A stretch of 64,000 nt of DNA, from NCBI GenBank assembly GCA_012729395.1, contig JAAYDF010000155.1, positions 1-64,000 of the forward strand, given 5' to 3'. Both the position numbers and the translations under genes were made by a program. Numbering within the stretch: position 1 is the first letter of the stretch; each line of letters begins with the position of its first letter. Below the pieces are notes generated by a model. The model was not told the DNA's origin, made no database searches, and saw only the letters and a list, made by a program, of their open reading frames with translations. Shown piece after piece: positions 51,815-64,000 of the stretch. Origin of the DNA: Phycisphaerae bacterium (GTDB lineage Bacteria; Planctomycetota; Phycisphaerae; UBA1845; PWPN01).

Positions 51815-51882
51815 CAGAGCCGCGACCGTAAGGGAGCGGTTCTTCGGCAGAGCGAAACCGCTCCCTTACGGTCGCGGCTCTG
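51815..51882. repeat. Palindromic intergenic repeat, copy A (perfect 27-bp stem)
   Basis: CAGAGCCGCGACCGTAAGGGAGCGGTT / AACCGCTCCCTTACGGTCGCGGCTCTG, 14-nt loop. Confidence 0.9.
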
Positions 51883-56322: not shown

Positions 56323-56895
56323 TCATTGCCCGCTATCCGTTTCTTGCCCCGTGCTCGGAGCCGTAGAGGTCAGCCCGACCCGATCCCGGAACTCCTTGGG
56401 CACGGGCCCCAACCGCCAATGATCTCCTTCTCGAAAAATCATGATCGGCAGGTTCACTTCTTTACGCCCCTTGCGATCCTCCTGCCGCAGCCTGGCTTGG
56501 GCCTCGACCACGTACACCGCTGGTGGGTCTCCCTCACCGGCGTGGATCCGCTGGATCTCGATCTCCTTGACCTGCGGCCAGATGCGTCGGAAATTGGCGA
56601 GACTGGTCGGCTCGTAGATGCTCCCGAAGAGCTGGCGAAACGCGTCGTAATCCCCCATCTGGCACACCTGCAGGACATGCTCGACGAACGCGTTCAGGCT
56701 CGCGTCGCCCCCATGGACTCCGGCGGGGAAGATCACATGGGGACGCGGCGCGTGGGGAGCCTCCTCCACCAGGGTCTGGCGGTCGATCTGGGCGTCGCTG
56801 GCGTCGGAATCATCCCGTGAGCACCGGCAACCGCCCACCACGCAGGACGCCAGAACCATCGCCCAAGAAAACCTAACTATTTTTCTATTAAACAT
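56323..56895 (-). CDS. Hypothetical lipoprotein
   Basis: MFNRKIVRFSWAMVLASCVVGGC lipobox-like; coherent soluble domain. Confidence 0.65.
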   Translation of the reverse strand: MFNRKIVRFSWAMVLASCVVGGCRCSRDDSDASDAQIDRQTLVEEAPHAPRPHVIFPAGVHGGDASLNAFVEHVLQVCQMGDYDAFRQLFGSIYEPTSLANFRRIWPQVKEIEIQRIHAGEGDPPAVYVVEAQARLRQEDRKGRKEVNLPIMIFREGDHWRLGPVPKEFRDRVGLTSTAPSTGQETDSGQ

Positions 56896-56985
56896 TTAGA
56901 AGCACCTCGGGACCGGCCGTCACCAGGACCGGAAGTCATCATAGCCCTCGCCGGGCAAGGCGCCAACCAATGCCCATCGGGCCGG

Positions 56986-57014
56986 CGAAAAAGGTTCCTG
57001 ACACCTTTTTCGGC
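56986..57014. repeat. REP copy (third locus)
   Basis: CGAAAAAGG-TTCCTGACA-CCTTTTTCG; same core as RAYT-adjacent REP. Confidence 0.75.
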
Positions 57015-57023
57015 CGTGGGGTA

Positions 57024-57926
57024 TCAGTGACTTGCGGTCGTGACCGGTCGGCGGAGCATTTCCGGGACGTGATCCTCGGCTGTGTCCAGCCCGGTGATGA
57101 ACTGCAGCTCGGTCATGGTCTGCTCGGTCTGGACCATGCTGGAGACGACCTGGTCCACCTGCCCGGAGATGAAATCGGGCTCGTGGCGGTTGATCGCCAA
57201 CTCGCTGAGTGAGCGGATCTTGTTCTCCAGGCTGTCGAGCTGCAGCAGGACAAGCTCGCAGTTCTGGCGGGCCTTCTGTACGTTCGCCAACCGCGTACGG
57301 GAGGTATCCAGGTTATCCTGCAAGACTGCTTTGAATCGCTGCCGCTGTGTGTCGTCGCCCTTGTCGGCCAGGGCGGCCAGGCGAGCCTCGATCGCCCGGA
57401 TGTCCGCCTGGATGCGCTGCTCGTCGGTTTTCTGGAGGAACTGATCGAGGGAATACTGTGTGAACAGCAGTCGCAGGTAGATCCACAAGAGCCGGTCGAG
57501 GCCTGCCAACTGGAGGGCCTCCAGCGGCGGCGGGTCGCCCAATTGCTGAGGATCGCGCATCTCGATGGCCAGTTGTCGCAACTCGGCGCAGCGGGCCCGC
57601 AAGCTCTCGAACCGCTGCACCGATGCCTTAGGAAGGGATCGGAGGATCTGCTGGACGACTTGGTGGGTGTCGACGGCAAGCTGACGGCCCTGGCGGTCGA
57701 TCTTGGCCTCCTGGGCCTCGACGTAGGCCTGGAAGCGCGGGTGCGTACCGATCAGGCCGAGGTAGGCCAGTTCGGTCGCCAGCACCAGCGGACCGGCTAC
57801 GTCGAATCGCCCGCTGAGCAGGGCGAAACCCATCCCCGCCAGGAACAGCAGCAGGTTCCATCGGTTGATGAACGCGGTCTTGAGATACTTACCCAGTCGC
57901 ACGGGTGATGTTCTTCCCCGGTACAC
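57024..57926 (-). CDS. Hypothetical membrane-associated coiled-coil protein
   Basis: N-terminal NRWNLLLFLAGMGFALLSGRFDVAGPLVLATELAYLGLI; long helical region. Confidence 0.78.
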   Translation of the reverse strand: MYRGRTSPVRLGKYLKTAFINRWNLLLFLAGMGFALLSGRFDVAGPLVLATELAYLGLIGTHPRFQAYVEAQEAKIDRQGRQLAVDTHQVVQQILRSLPKASVQRFESLRARCAELRQLAIEMRDPQQLGDPPPLEALQLAGLDRLLWIYLRLLFTQYSLDQFLQKTDEQRIQADIRAIEARLAALADKGDDTQRQRFKAVLQDNLDTSRTRLANVQKARQNCELVLLQLDSLENKIRSLSELAINRHEPDFISGQVDQVVSSMVQTEQTMTELQFITGLDTAEDHVPEMLRRPVTTASH

Positions 57927-58000
57927 GTTGGAGACACGGTGCTTTCACTTGTCACTTTCTACCTCGGCACTCCTCAGCGAGCGGGCGAGAGACCTTTGCG

Positions 58001-58066
58001 GAGCCGCGACGGTAAGGGAGCGGTTGCTCGCTGTCGAGAAGAACCGCTCCCTTACGGTCGCGGCTC
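58001..58066. repeat. Palindromic intergenic repeat, copy B (24/25-bp stem)
   Basis: GAGCCGCGACGGTAAGGGAGCGGTT / AACCGCTCCCTTACGGTCGCGGCTC. Confidence 0.88.
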
Positions 58067-58115
58067 TGCTCAGCGGTCGCGGCTGTGACACACCACATGC
58101 CGATCACGCATTCAC

Positions 58116-59033
58116 TCATTCAGCCGCGCGGCTCTCTTCGAGCTCGCTGATCAGGTCGCGGATATAGGCGACGGTCTCCTGGAAGCGTGGCTCGCGTTGC
58201 ATCTGCCTGGATGGCCGATTGGCTGGCTCGACCTCCATCTCCCGCAGCAGGGTGCCCGGCGAGTTGCTCATGATGTACACCCGGTCACCTAAGTACACCG
58301 CCTCTTCGATCGAGTGGGTAACGAAGAACACCGTCGCCTCGACCTCCCGCCACAGGGTCACGAGCAGATCCTGCATGTTCATCCGCGTGTGCGGGTCCAG
58401 AGCGCCGAAGGGCTCATCCATGAGAATGATTCGCGGGCGAAGAATCAAGGTCCGGGCGATGGCCACGCGCTGGCGCATGCCGCCGGACAGCTCATGGGGG
58501 TACTTGTATTGATCGACGTCGACGTTGAGGCCGACGCGCTGGATCCACTGGCGGCCGAGGTCGTGGCGGTCTTTCCGGCTGACGCCGCGGCACTCGAGGC
58601 CGAAGGTCACATTGTCCAACACCGTGCGGTGGTCGAAGCTGGTATAGTCCTGGAAGACCATGCCTCGGTCGGCCCCCGCACCGGTGACGGGCCGACCAAG
58701 AACCTGCACCTCGCCCGTGGTGGCCGGGTGCTGCGGTTCGAGCCCGGCGATAAGCCGGAGAACCGTGCTCTTGCCGCACCCGCTGGGGCCGAGGACACAG
58801 ACGAACTCGCCGACATCTTTGATATCCTGAACCACGAAGCTGACGTCGCGGATGGCGGTGTGGGCGTTGGGTCGGCCGGCGTTGTAGGTCTTGGTGACGT
58901 TGCGGAACTCGACCACCGGCGGGCCGGCCAGCTTCGCCGGGATCGGCGGGTGATCGATCACGCGGCTGACGCCGATCGGGCCTGCGTCTGGATCGACGGG
59001 TTGCGGTGTGGGCGTCGGGGTGCCCTGGGTCAT
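58116..59033 (-). CDS. ABC transporter ATP-binding protein (nitrate/sulfonate/taurine-type)
   Basis: FVCVLGPSGCGKSTVLRLIAGLEP, LSGGMRQRVAIARTLILRPRIILMDEPFGALDPHTR, FFVTHSIEEAVYLGDRV. Confidence 0.96.
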   Translation of the reverse strand: MTQGTPTPTPQPVDPDAGPIGVSRVIDHPPIPAKLAGPPVVEFRNVTKTYNAGRPNAHTAIRDVSFVVQDIKDVGEFVCVLGPSGCGKSTVLRLIAGLEPQHPATTGEVQVLGRPVTGAGADRGMVFQDYTSFDHRTVLDNVTFGLECRGVSRKDRHDLGRQWIQRVGLNVDVDQYKYPHELSGGMRQRVAIARTLILRPRIILMDEPFGALDPHTRMNMQDLLVTLWREVEATVFFVTHSIEEAVYLGDRVYIMSNSPGTLLREMEVEPANRPSRQMQREPRFQETVAYIRDLISELEESRAAE

Positions 59034-59977
59034 GAGGCTTTCTCCTGGGAGGGGGTCGGCTGGCGGATCGCGGCCACCGGCGTCGGTTTGACCAGCAGGA
59101 ACTTGAATCGCTCCCAGCCCACGAGAAGCACATGCACCGCCCGGTTGAGGATACCTGAGCCGCCGTACCGATGCGGGAACAGCTCCCGCTGAATCCAGAA
59201 CAGCCCTCGGTCAATCGCCAGGGCGACGATGGGAATGATGATCAGGACGAGCAGGATGTGCTCCTTGGGGCCGCGGCGTTGCGAGGTGATGATGATGTCA
59301 CCCAAGCCGCCGGATTCGCCACCGAACTTGACCAGTTCGGCCAGCATGATGTAGCCGAACGCCAGCCCGAACAGCAGGCGCAGCGAGTTGAAGATGCTCG
59401 GGAAGGCGAGCGGGACGAGTACCTTGAGGATCACCTGTCGCCGGGCCGCCCCGAGGGTGTAGGCGGTATCGATGTAGCGGTCGTGCACCTCGGCGATGGC
59501 CCGGGCGGAATCTGAGAGGATGAACGCCACGCAGGCGATGAAGATGAACATGATCTTCTGCAGCTCGCCGATGCCGAACAGTGAGAAGGTCAGCGGGATC
59601 AGGGCGGCGACGGGGATATTGCGGCCGAAGATCGAAACCGGGGCGAAGAAGGCCCGCAGGAAGGGGAAGCAGCCGCAGAGGATGCCCAGGGGTACGCCTA
59701 CCGCGGTCGCCAGACCGAATCCCAAGGCGACTCGCCGCAGGCTGGCCAGCGTGTTGCGGGTGAGTGCCCGGTCGAACCACAACTCGGGGAAGGTGGCGAA
59801 GGTTTCGTGGGGACTGGGCAGCACGGTGGGACTGAGCAACCGCTGCTCCGGCTCACCATGGGTCGCCAGCCACCAGACCCCGAGAACAGTCAACAGGCAG
59901 CCGAGGGCGAACAGGAGCCCCTGCCACCACGCCACCTCGCGACGCAATCTGAAGAAACCGCTGAACATAAAGGTCAA
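59030..59977 (-). CDS. ABC transporter permease (SsuC/TauC-like)
   Basis: [73 protein letters not shown]; 4-nt overlap with ATPase. Confidence 0.93.
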
Positions 59978-60011
59978 CTCATTGGATCAGAAGGTGTGCG
60001 AGACGCCTTTT

Positions 60012-60075
60012 CAGAGCGACGACTGCAAGGGAACGGTCGCTCGCTGCCGAGAAGAACCGCTCCCTTAGGTCGGGC
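60012..60075. repeat. Palindromic intergenic repeat, copy C (degenerate)
   Basis: CTCGCTGCCGAGAAGAACCGCTCCCTTA matches copy B; left arm diverged. Confidence 0.7.
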
Positions 60076-60089
60076 ATTTGCCAGATGGC

Positions 60090-60134
60090 CATGCACACGC
60101 AGACACTGCTCACAGAGCAGTGCCACACGATCAC
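60090..60134. repeat. Second copy of the 45-nt dispersed repeat (see 31660-31704)
   Basis: 41/45 identical. Confidence 0.8.
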
Positions 60135-60206
60135 GCTACCCGCTCGTCGTTCGTCACTTCTCACGAATGCTGAGCGCCTTCTTCCTTATGCCTTCTTCCT
60201 TATGCC

Positions 60207-60259
60207 CACTGCCTACTGCCTTCTGCCTACTGCCTTCTGCCTACTGCCTTCTGCCTTCT
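60207..60259. repeat. Pyrimidine-rich about 14-bp tandem repeat (CTGCCTACTGCCTT)
   Basis: About three units by direct reading. Confidence 0.75.
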
Positions 60260-60263
60260 CCGC

Positions 60264-61991
60264 TCAACCGGGGCTCTCCGCGGGGTAGATTTTGACCTCG
60301 ACGCGGCGGTTGCGGGTATGGTTTTCGGGGTCGGTGGCGTCGGCGGGCCGATCCCAGCCCATGCCCTCGACGGCGAGTTGGTTGGGGTCCAGGCTGTACT
60401 TGCGCACCAGGGACTCCTTGACCGCGTTGGCCCGGTTGAGCGAGAGCTCCTTGACCAGGCTGGCGGGCACCTGTCCGCGCATCGAAGAATCCGTGTGGCC
60501 CTGGATAATAATCCGGGCGGCCCCGAACTGGCCTGCCAGCTTGGCGATATCTTCGAGCACGAAATCGACGTTCGGGTCGTAGAGCTCCTCGACCTCCTTG
60601 CCATCCACTTTCTTGGTGATCTTCTTGTCCAGCTCCCAACTGTTGGGGAAGAAGTGGATGAACTGCGTGTTGGTGAGGATCTCCTCCTCGGCTCGGATGG
60701 TACCCGCGCTGGCGGGCGTGAATCGCACGGTGTACTCATCCTTCTGCGAGGCGTAGCGTTCCTCCTGTCCGAGCTTCTGGATGACCGAGAAGTCCATGAC
60801 CTGATCGAAGGGCACCGGCTGGTGGCGGATGGCCCCGATGCGTCGATACAGGTAATACGACTGGTTCCAGATCCGCTCGAAGTTGGCGGGGTTGTTGCGG
60901 TTGAGGAGGAACTGGAAGTTCTCCGCCCAGTTGGTGCTGTGGGCGTCGCCGAACATGGCCAGTGTCTCGCTGGCGGGGATGTTGTAGCCGACAGCCATGA
61001 GCTCGGCAGCCTGCTTGCGACGGCTTTCGTCTTTGAGCTCCTCCATGGCGTCGAAGATACCGCGGACCAGCCCCTCGATGATCGCGGGATGGTCGTGGGC
61101 GAAGTCGGCGCGGGCGAACCACACATCGGCGATCAACTTGTTGGCGGTGGCGGTAGTGACCAGCATGCGGTTGCCGCGCACCTTCTCGAGGTTGTAGATA
61201 TCCGGGGCCCAGGAGACGGCGCCGGCGATATCCTTCTGAGCGTTGAACGCCGCGGCGGCTTGGAAGGCGTCCTCGGTGTAGACCATGCTGACTTCGGAGG
61301 GTTGGATGCCGCCGGCCACGAGCATGTTCAGCGCGAAATACTGCGAGGGCGAGTTCTGGGCGAGCACCAGTTTCTGGCCGCGGAGGTCGGTCACGGTCTT
61401 GATGTGGTCGCGAACGACGATACCGTCGCCACCATTGGACCAATCGACCTGCTGGAAGATGCGCGGCATGACCCGGCTATCGCGCGGCTTACCGCTGCTG
61501 TCCACGAAGCCGTCCATGAACAGCGGGACCATATCAAGGGTGGCCCAGCCGATGTGCAGGTCGCCGGCCGCGTAGGCGTCGCGCATGGCCACGGGGTTAT
61601 CAATCAGCACCAGTTCGACCTTGAACTCCTCGCCGCCGGGGGCCTTCCATACTTTGCCCGGGCCGAACCCGTTGTTGGCGAGGATGATGGGTGCCCAGCC
61701 CGCCCAGACATTCAGAGCAAAGCGAACCGTGTTGTCGGTCAACGGCTTGTACGCCGACGTGCCTTTGACCTCCGGCAGCCGTTCAGTGGGCAGGAAGGTG
61801 TACTCCTGGACCGTGGTGATGCCGTCGGTTTGAAGGGGGTCCTCCACCGCCTGAGCGAGTGGCTCGCCCGTGGTTGGCTCGCCCCCCTTGGGCGCGAAGA
61901 TGTCGCTGCGATAGATGGCGAACGCCACCAGCGCGGCCACGACGATGATGAGCACGAAGTAGAACGCGGGTTTCGGTTGTCCTGCTGCCAT
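60264..61991 (-). CDS. ABC substrate-binding domain (NMT1/SsuA-like) fused to a C-terminal OmpA-like peptidoglycan-binding domain
   Basis: [57 protein letters not shown]-terminal [77 protein letters not shown]. Confidence 0.93.
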
Positions 61992-62016
61992 CGGATCATC
62001 CTCCATTGGGAGCCGT

Positions 62017-62856
62017 CTAATCTTCCTTTTCGGCCGGCATGGCCTCCGCCAGAATGCGCTTCTCGTAAATATCCGTCAACCGCTGCTGGAGTTGGGGCGC
62101 GTCGGCGGCCTCGACCGCGAAGCCGTTGACCGCGTTGAGAAAGTCAAAGTAACCCGCCGAGGTATCGAAAGCCACGAAGTGCAACTCGACCTCGCCCGCG
62201 GTCTGAGCGTACAACTGCCGGGCGACCCGATCGGCCGGCGGGCCGGAGGTATTCTGCCCGTCGGTGATGCATACGACGTACTTGCGCACGCACCCGGACT
62301 GGTAGAGCGATTGGAAGGCGACCTGAAGGGCCCTACCAATGGCCGTTCCGCCCGCTGGCCTGGGAAGGCGTTGCAGGGCGTCGGGGACACTCTTCGCGTC
62401 AAACGGCGCCATGGGCAACACCGGGGAGACGGAACTGGAGAAACTGGATACGCCGATTTGCAGCACGCGATCGGGATTGGCCTGCTGCCATTGGCTGGTA
62501 TGCTCGAGAATACGGGCGAGAGCCTCTTTGGCGATATCGCTCTTGGGCCTGGGCCGACCGTCGTGGTCCTGCACGGCGTCCCGCATGCTGCCCGAGGTAT
62601 CGACCAGGATGGCGACGGCGGTGCACAGCCGCTGTTCGGTCTCGGGCAGAGGGATGACCGCGTGGGGTCGTGGGGCGACCGCGACCGGTGCGGGCGTCAC
62701 TCTCGGAGCCGGCGATGAATGCTCTTGCCGGGTCACCGCCCAAATAGCAAGGGCCAGCACGACCACGATACCTGCGAAACCGCCGGGACCGCGTGTGCCA
62801 GCCGATCCTCTGGCCAGGCCGATAGCCCGGAAACCACGGAATTGGCGATGGTGCAT
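62017..62856 (-). CDS. von Willebrand factor type A domain protein
   Basis: [16 protein letters not shown] (MIDAS DxSxS), [26 protein letters not shown]. Confidence 0.92.
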
Positions 62857-63073
62857 GGCGGCATCCTCCTTCAAGCTTGGACTCGCTGGCGACCCGCCAG
62901 GCGGACCTGCAGGCCTGGGAGGTATTGGACCGTATCGTGCGGCGCCGGGCCATTATAATGCCCACGCCATTTTCGAAGCCTTCGACCGCCCGTCGCATTT
63001 GCCGCTGCTACATGAGGTAACGCGAGTTCCCGCTGAGAGGCGATCTTCGCGGTGCGACCGATTGTCGCCTCAG

Positions 63074-63601
63074 TCAACCCTGGAACTCGACCTTGGGCCG
63101 CGCCTCGTGCATGGCGTGCAAGACCTGCATCAGGTCGTAGGCGGTCAGCTCGCAGAGCAGCCTCGTAACCTGGACGTGCAGTCCGTCGTCGAGTTGCGGC
63201 TCGATCTCTTTCATCAGCCGCACCAGTCGATTTTCCTGATCGCGCAGCTCGCCGGCCTCGATCACGCCGTCGGCCATAGCTTCCATAAAAGAGGTAAGCT
63301 GGCGGGCGTACCGCTCGATGACCGGCTTCTGGGCGGCCTCGTCAAGCCAACTCGGTCGGTTGGCGCTGATCTTCGGTGCCGCCGCCCTGGGGGCCGCTTT
63401 GCCCGTGGCAGCCTTGCGAGCGGCCGGTCGCTTCTTGGCGACGGCCTTGGCGGTCCGTGCGCCGGCCGCCTTGGTGCTCGGCTTCTTCTTGGGTGCCTGC
63501 TTCTTGCCGCGCTTCACGGGCTTGGCCTTCGCCGCGACTGCCTTTCGAGCGCCGGCAACCTTTTTCGCACTCGCCTTCTTCCCGGTCTTCTTCTTGGCCA
63601 T
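63074..63601 (-). CDS. Histone-H1-like Lys/Ala-rich N-terminus fused to a globular alpha-helical C-terminal domain
   Basis: MAKKKTGKKASAKKVAGARKAVAAKAKPVKRGKKQAPKKK...; C-term RPSWLDEAAQKPVIERYARQLTSFMEAMADGVIEAGELRDQENRLV. Confidence 0.85.
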   Translation of the reverse strand: MAKKKTGKKASAKKVAGARKAVAAKAKPVKRGKKQAPKKKPSTKAAGARTAKAVAKKRPAARKAATGKAAPRAAAPKISANRPSWLDEAAQKPVIERYARQLTSFMEAMADGVIEAGELRDQENRLVRLMKEIEPQLDDGLHVQVTRLLCELTAYDLMQVLHAMHEARPKVEFQG

Positions 63602-63667
63602 GCTATTGTCCTCGCCCCGTGTCCAACATTCATCGCCCAGAACGTGCATCAAAAGCCAGACCAGCAA

Positions 63668-63738
63668 TCAGAGCCTCGCTCGTGAAGAAGCGGTGGCTCG
63701 GATCGAGAAGAACCGCTTCCTCACGGGCGCGGCTCTGA
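63668..63738. repeat. Palindromic intergenic repeat, copy D (diverged)
   Basis: CAGAGCCTCGCTCGTGAAGAAGCGGTG ... GAGAAGAACCGCTTCCTCACGGGCGCGGCTCTG. Confidence 0.7.
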
Positions 63739-63781
63739 TTGACGTTCTCGCCCTCATCGCTCAGTACTCAGCTCTCAGTAC

Positions 63782-64000
63782 TCATTTCCCTTCCAGCAAT
63801 TGCCGAATCGCCTGCAATCGCTCCTGCAGCATCCCGCGGCCGTTGGGTTGGGTGACTCGGTCTCGCCAGTCGGGCGGCAGGAAGCCGAGCTGCGTGCACT
63901 CCAGGACGGATGCCAGCTCCTGCAGCTCTTTCTCCAACCCCTGAACCGATGGGAGGAACTCGTCGGCCGCTTGCCGGAGGTCATCCGGCTCGACGGTCGC
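63782..64000 (-). CDS. Partial CDS running off the right edge (72 aa of C-terminus visible), hypothetical
   Basis: Reverse-strand reading frame open from 64000: ATVEPDDLRQAADEFLPSVQGLEKELQELASVLECTQLGFLPPDWRDRVTQPNGRGMLQERLQAIRQLLEGK*. Not in the ORF track because it has no start inside the window. Confidence 0.7.
   Translation of the reverse strand, partial: ATVEPDDLRQAADEFLPSVQGLEKELQELASVLECTQLGFLPPDWRDRVTQPNGRGMLQERLQAIRQLLEGK

Follow-up and report, generated by a model that had tools for sequence, protein, structure and literature searches.

A PspA-AAA+ gene cluster adjoining a predicted wall-tethered ABC transporter in Planctomycetota

What does a cell do with an ABC transporter whose binding protein appears to be fixed to the cell wall? 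This question is raised by seven minus-strand genes in a row at positions 57024-64000 of the window, the stretch of 64,000 nucleotides analyzed here, which corresponds to bases 1-64000 of the 80.7-kb contig C122 in a 5.7-Mb draft genome of a Phycisphaerae bacterium. All of the open reading frames (ORFs) that the original prediction, made from the letters of the window, had placed there are present. That prediction took the genes for a multi-gene envelope system, a view now borne out by conserved gene order and by the co-occurrence of two of the genes described below.

The locus runs past the end of the window, where the last ORF is a cut-off gene, and holds eight genes in all. Their full order is PspA, an AAA+ ATPase, a small helical protein, a von Willebrand factor type A (vWA) protein, a substrate-binding protein (SBP) fused to an OmpA-like domain (SBP-OmpA), a permease, an ABC ATPase, and a protein predicted to combine two transmembrane (TM) helices with a coiled coil (2TM/coiled-coil protein), with intergenic gaps of at most 295 nt in this genome. 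PspA and the AAA+ ATPase, just outside the window, were missed by the original prediction. Because these two genes adjoin the others, the locus takes on the identity of a phage-shock/ESCRT-III-like membrane-maintenance locus. We give an even chance to the proposal that PspA and the AAA+ ATPase form a module that maintains the inner membrane and is coupled to a TauABC-like transporter or sensor tethered to the wall.

Gene order and distribution

When 60 relatives are compared together with the genome itself, close orthologs of SBP-OmpA (72-81% identity) and of the 2TM/coiled-coil protein (52-66%) share one and the same set of 10 genomes. All eight genes are found in the same order in five relatives, and fragments in other relatives agree. 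When an alignment of SBP-OmpA was scanned against 84,980 species genomes, 172 loci were recovered, and the best 80 of the 172 were examined. Nearly all of these are labeled Planctomycetota, with a few Acidobacteria, Gemmatimonadetes and Deltaproteobacteria, although occurrence beyond Planctomycetota is read from the labels of metagenome-assembled genomes only. Thirty-seven loci, a set conditioned on SBP-OmpA, have sufficient flanks (6.5 kb or more both before and after the start of SBP-OmpA). The order PspA, AAA+, small helical protein, SBP-OmpA, permease, ABC ATPase and coiled-coil protein is found in 25 of these, and the same order plus vWA in five, such that the seven-gene core is present in one order in 30 of the 37 loci; the remainder are partial or rearranged. 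PspA is kept upstream in 34 of the 37. A cultured carrier, Aquisphaera insulae JC669 (L112), has PspA, SBP-OmpA, permease, ABC ATPase and coiled-coil genes.

A separate sample of 392 genomes from the phylum contains SBP-OmpA in 32, the 2TM/coiled-coil protein in 39 and both in 27 (odds ratio 157, Fisher p = 1.7e-27, unweighted for phylogeny). The spread is patchy, with SBP-OmpA present in ~8% of this sample at the threshold used. The original prediction had turned on the joint occurrence of these genes in related genomes, and both the close relatives and the phylum sample show them together. Gene content, order and co-occurrence, like the integrity of the domains and motifs described below, are directly established. 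Recurrence of the same parts in the same order across the phylum goes far beyond what chance would give, and the cluster is widespread but patchy in planctomycete bacteria.

Deep relatives carry rearranged loci built from the same parts. In genome G015, the vWA and SBP-OmpA genes lie on one contig and the permease, ABC ATPase and coiled-coil genes on another, and in the single-contig genome G367 the permease and SBP-OmpA genes are far from the ABC ATPase and coiled-coil genes; both halves are kept in each case. A distant variant in the same order, that of G053 (L048:5753-17699, minus strand), encodes on one strand an SBP-OmpA, a vWA protein, a second SBP-OmpA, a further SBP, a permease, an ABC ATPase and an AAA+ protein; neither PspA nor the coiled-coil gene was detected in it.

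The description of the system as undescribed was too strong. Ravi et al. 2024 give one sentence to operons that contain PspA, an AAA+ ATPase, an ABC ATPase, a permease and a PBPB-OmpA protein, with OGG56892.1 as the example; a TM-bearing Snf7 homolog is mentioned in such operons, and the AAA+ protein is characterized by two AAA domains of which the N-terminal one is inactive (PMC11237479). The locus studied here shares PspA/IM30, the ABC ATPase with its permease, and the fusion of a solute-binding domain to OmpA, which are three of the five class features tested, and none of the five fails. In its AAA+ protein, the N-terminal half reads by eye as a degenerate AAA domain that no profile detects. 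Where the class as given in that text has a Snf7 homolog with a TM segment, the locus has a TM/coiled-coil protein with no detectable Snf7 similarity. The locus is very probably a real, conserved system of this class, which is much firmer than anything that can be said of its function. The operon class is known already; the vWA partner, the small helical protein, the predicted MotB-like topology and the distribution in Planctomycetota do not appear in the main text of Ravi et al. and go beyond it. Our literature search on vWA/TelA/OmpA combinations found nothing further.

Proteins of the two modules

SBP-OmpA (60264-62006, minus strand; 580 aa) consists of an N-terminal TM helix, an NMT1/TauA/SsuA-like domain at approximately residues 94-340 that aligns with TauA (Pfam NMT1, E 2e-6), and an OmpA-like domain at approximately residues 478-573 (Pfam OmpA, E 8e-12). 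A single strong hydrophobic helix (hydropathy 2.3-3.0) begins the protein in 10 of 10 orthologs, all of which are predicted to be TM-anchored, and no lipobox was found in these 10; the solute-binding domain is fused to OmpA in all orthologs aligned. In Acinetobacter baumannii OmpA, diaminopimelate (DAP) is bound by Asp271 and Arg286 (PMC5974059). Alignment to the structure of that protein (3td3) places the corresponding Asp and Arg in the motifs GHTD and LSxxRA, which are invariant in SBP-OmpA orthologs. The N-terminal TM helix and the conserved DAP-binding residues together predict that SBP-OmpA is anchored in the inner membrane by its N-terminus and bound to peptidoglycan by its C-terminal domain, an arrangement like that of MotB. 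The binding protein therefore does look wall-anchored, as originally proposed. The likeness to MotB/PomB stators is one of topology only, since SBP-OmpA has a substrate-binding domain between its two anchors and no MotA-like partner. Two tandem SBP-OmpA genes are present in one locus of G175 (L140:10466-14011, minus strand), which suggests two binding specificities feeding one transporter.

The permease (59030-59977, minus strand; TauC/SsuC-like, PF00528 BPD_transp_1, E 1e-18) overlaps the gene for the ABC ATPase (58116-59033, minus strand; TauB/SsuB/NrtD-like, PF00005 ABC_tran, E 4e-26) by 4 nt, as had been noted, and this overlap is kept in every relative where both genes are readable. Walker A, signature and Walker B motifs of the ATPase are intact by eye, as is the EAA-like loop of the permease, such that the catalytic and coupling motifs are preserved as far as sequence can be read. 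All three transporter parts fall into the fold families of TauABC/SsuABC/NrtBCD importers. Unlike in those importers, the SBP carries a membrane anchor at its N-terminus and a peptidoglycan-binding domain at its C-terminus, the neighboring genes encode PspA and an AAA+ ATPase, and all NCBIfam equivalog cutoffs are missed (211 versus 357 bits for the TauB-type ATPase, 116 versus 295 for the permease, and 69 versus 334 for the SBP). A TauABC/SsuABC-type transporter of known substrate was rejected on the basis of these cutoffs. The free periplasmic or lipid-anchored SBP typical of such importers is also not what we find, because this SBP is predicted to be TM-anchored and is fused to OmpA.

PspA (C122:65856-66599, same strand as the AAA+ gene; 247 aa) matches PspA_IM30 above the gathering score (PF04012, E 3e-11) and is the sole PspA detected in the genome. 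The AAA+ gene spans C122:63782-65677 and encodes 631 aa. The window holds only the last 72 residues (63782-64000, minus strand), which had been mistaken for a coiled-coil gene at the edge. A Cdc48/Vps4-type AAA domain occupies residues 374-499 (PF00004, E 4e-23), and both Walker A (GPVGTGKT) and Walker B (VVIIDEAD) lie in this C-terminal half; the closest PDB relatives are Cdc48/AFG2-type ATPases. By eye, the N-terminal half is degenerate and AAA-like, without a Walker A motif, and profiles give no match there. PspA is a member of the ESCRT-III superfamily (PMC11746142, PMC10936438), and its position beside a Cdc48/Vps4-like ATPase recalls the ESCRT-III/Vps4 pair. In contrast to that system, neither a Snf7 nor an ESCRT-II protein nor an MIT domain was found, and an ABC transporter is attached.

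The 2TM/coiled-coil protein (57024-57926, minus strand; 300 aa) is a core member of the system by its co-occurrence with SBP-OmpA and belongs to an unnamed family. An N-terminal hydrophobic hairpin at approximately residues 24-61, of moderate hydropathy and probably forming two TM helices, is followed by ~240 aa of helices. Modeling and a fold search, which had been named as checks on this protein, gave an all-helical AlphaFold 2 model (pLDDT 88.6, pTM 0.77, deep alignment) and no significant fold match. Searches with this model and with a shallower one (pLDDT 73.5) returned long-helix matches such as BAR domains, with E values of at least 0.05 and TM scores of ~0.2, and no ESCRT-III structure was among the 50 best matches. 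No Pfam family was found when 61 members were scanned, hhalign gave no profile match to PspA with shallow or deep alignments, and Snf7 (PF03357), run over nine genomes, did not match the protein. With the Pfam, hhalign and PF03357 searches all negative, a Snf7 or PspA relative was rejected.

The gene for this protein lies beside AAA+ and/or PspA, with no ABC genes in the stretch, in L138, L141 and L146, the latter two being short contigs. Because it stays by AAA+/PspA where ABC genes are not found nearby, the protein appears to belong with the membrane module. On the long contig L138 (G121), the genes for the coiled-coil, AAA+ and small helical proteins lie together in a 20-kb stretch that contains neither SBP-OmpA nor any ABC gene; this arrangement is possibly a transporter-free form of the membrane module.

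The vWA protein (62017-62874, minus strand; VWA_2, E 7e-13) has an intact metal ion-dependent adhesion site (DxSGS, T, D) whose residues are invariant in orthologs, most of which begin with a TM helix or a lipoprotein signal/lipobox. With this match, Pfam supports the transporter, OmpA-like and vWA domains that had been named at the outset (ABC_tran, BPD_transp_1, OmpA, NMT1 and VWA_2). The gene is found in 5 of the 37 loci with sufficient flanks and reappears in the distant variants L139, L142, L143, L145 and L048. In the clades that lack it, which are the majority, the small helical gene adjoins SBP-OmpA, mostly within ~200 nt. Absent in most clades yet recurring in distant variants, the vWA protein is a genuine optional member of the system.

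The small helical protein (63074-63667, minus strand, with the start probably at 63601) joins a variable Lys/Ala-rich N-terminal tail to a conserved ~95-aa helical domain ending in RPKxxFxG. It had been read as an H1-like fusion. The basic tail is, however, incidental and dispensable, being missing in L041 and many other relatives, and the histone H1-like NCBIfam match scores 22.9 bits against a cutoff of 80; an H1-like function was rejected on these grounds. No family could be assigned to the helical domain by family search. One of 50 members matches TerB, weakly (E 0.009), and profile comparison gives 34% over 14 columns only, at an ADGxxxxxE motif. This short motif and the vWA protein are what the locus has in common with Ter/TelA-vWA stress loci. 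A link to those loci, with which a comparison had been proposed, is not supported, since no Pfam match to TelA, TerD or TerC is present among the locus proteins scanned; the AAA+/PspA/ABC core is unrelated.

Coupling of the membrane and transporter modules

In the coupled arrangement that we favor, PspA would form assemblies where the inner membrane is under stress. Its remodeling or recycling would fall to the Cdc48/Vps4-like ATPase, and the 2TM/coiled-coil protein would serve as the membrane dock for this machinery. SBP-OmpA, bridging inner membrane and peptidoglycan, would hand a small solute over to the TauBC-like transporter, report on the gap between membrane and wall, or do both. In loci that encode it, the vWA protein may be a metal-dependent periplasmic adaptor. 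We infer each of these steps, as well as the topology and the coupling of the two modules.

Coupling is favored by the position of the only PspA gene in the genome and of the AAA+ gene directly upstream, by the conserved seven-gene order and by co-occurrence in an independent sample. It is also favored by the retention of both halves in the split loci of G015 and G367, by the coiled-coil gene staying with AAA+/PspA where ABC genes are not found (L138, L141, L146), and by the combination of the N-terminal TM helix and DAP-binding residues of SBP-OmpA with conserved ABC catalytic and coupling motifs. The same link between PspA/AAA+ and a transporter is predicted from a related operon in the main text of Ravi et al. 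2024 (PMC11237479).

Several points weigh against this proposal. The coupling of the two modules is drawn from gene neighborhood alone, the docking role of the 2TM/coiled-coil protein is a guess because it has no family or fold match, and no substrate can be assigned, as every transporter equivalog cutoff is missed widely. The hairpin repeats, together with gaps that reach 295 nt, mean that transcription as a single unit is not proven in this genome. The best sigma-54 (PspF-type) sites upstream of PspA are no better than shuffled sequences in five of seven genomes, and no experiment on the function of this operon class was found in the literature.

FtsEX and Bce-type ABC modules signal, and by analogy the locus might be a mechanical or solute sensor and not an importer, with SBP-OmpA as the bridge from membrane to wall and the ABC pair signaling envelope state to PspA/AAA+ through ATP hydrolysis. 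This would agree with the MotB-like topology and its peptidoglycan-binding residues, with the association with PspA and AAA+, and with the lack of recurrent metabolic genes beside the locus. The permease and ATPase are nonetheless of the uptake type, with the EAA-like loop and catalytic motifs intact; we regard a pure sensor as rather unlikely. An ordinary TauABC/SsuABC-like importer with a wall-anchored SBP, in which PspA and AAA+ only protect the membrane at high importer expression and are not mechanistically coupled, would explain why the transporter is complete with active-looking motifs, why the SBP domain aligns with TauA and why split loci exist. It sits poorly with a seven-gene order conserved across the phylum, with a coiled-coil gene that adjoins AAA+/PspA where no ABC genes are near, and with the fusion of SBP to OmpA in the orthologs aligned, and is accordingly unlikely. 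A strict bacterial ESCRT-III/Vps4 machine, with the coiled-coil protein as the "Snf7 homolog with a TM segment" described in such operons in the main text of Ravi et al. (PMC11237479), would suit the superfamily of PspA (PMC11746142, PMC10936438) and the Cdc48/Vps4 relationship of the AAA+ ATPase, but is very improbable given a coiled-coil protein that matches neither Snf7 nor a PspA profile and has no ESCRT-III structure among its 50 best fold matches.

Coupling of PspA/AAA+ to the wall-tethered transporter also permits a bolder proposal, which we consider doubtful on present evidence: that many Planctomycetota possess an ATP-driven, ESCRT-like remodeling machine mechanically linked to the wall. 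A new 2TM/coiled-coil family would dock the PspA/AAA+ part of this machine, and control of that part would come from an ABC module with an SBP that reaches from the inner membrane to peptidoglycan. Membrane repair would then be responsive either to a specific solute or to how far away the wall is. The inner membrane of Planctomycetota is elaborate and invaginated, which makes a dedicated membrane-wall device plausible in this phylum. How PspA-type polymers are recycled and sense stress in bacteria is an open question, for which the locus provides a defined gene set: the sole detectable PspA, a Vps4/Cdc48-like ATPase, a candidate membrane anchor and a wall-tethered transporter. According to the main text of Ravi et al. 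2024, it is also unknown how PspA homologs without an AAA ATPase regulate assembly (PMC11237479).

Hairpin repeats and flanking genes

Intergenic repeats had been thought to make a single operon uncertain. They are indeed present at 58.0 and 60.0 kb, as hairpin copies between the ABC ATPase and coiled-coil genes (57990-58075; fold -58.4 kcal/mol, z -8.9) and between the SBP-OmpA and permease genes (60000-60075). A further copy, absent from the original prediction, lies between the AAA+ and small helical genes (63668-63750), and another is in the window outside the locus (51815-51882). These belong to a palindromic family of ~70 nt, similar to repetitive extragenic palindromes, with ~78 genome matches counting both strands. 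Among the relatives compared, a clear copy in a locus gap is found only in L045 (G015). Because copies are genome-wide and a locus copy is seen in one relative only, the hairpins are an inserted dispersed element and not parts of the system, and they give no sign of a split system. They could affect transcript continuity in this genome.

No Rfam RNA or riboswitch matched in the locus, the sole match being a distant tRNA. On the 5' side of PspA lies a gene of the endonuclease/exonuclease/phosphatase family that the compared relatives do not have beside the locus; the genes beyond it are divergent. Just downstream of the coiled-coil gene, positions 56323-56895 (minus strand) encode a lipoprotein-like protein of 190 aa, for which neither Pfam nor NCBIfam gave a match. 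Among the relatives compared, G015 alone has a homolog of it near the locus (L044:5930-6436, 29% identity), ~2.4 kb upstream of the vWA and SBP-OmpA genes. A near-palindrome, AAAAAGGTTCCTGACACCTTTTT, also lies just downstream of the coiled-coil gene (56985-57015) and is possibly a dispersed element or a terminator.

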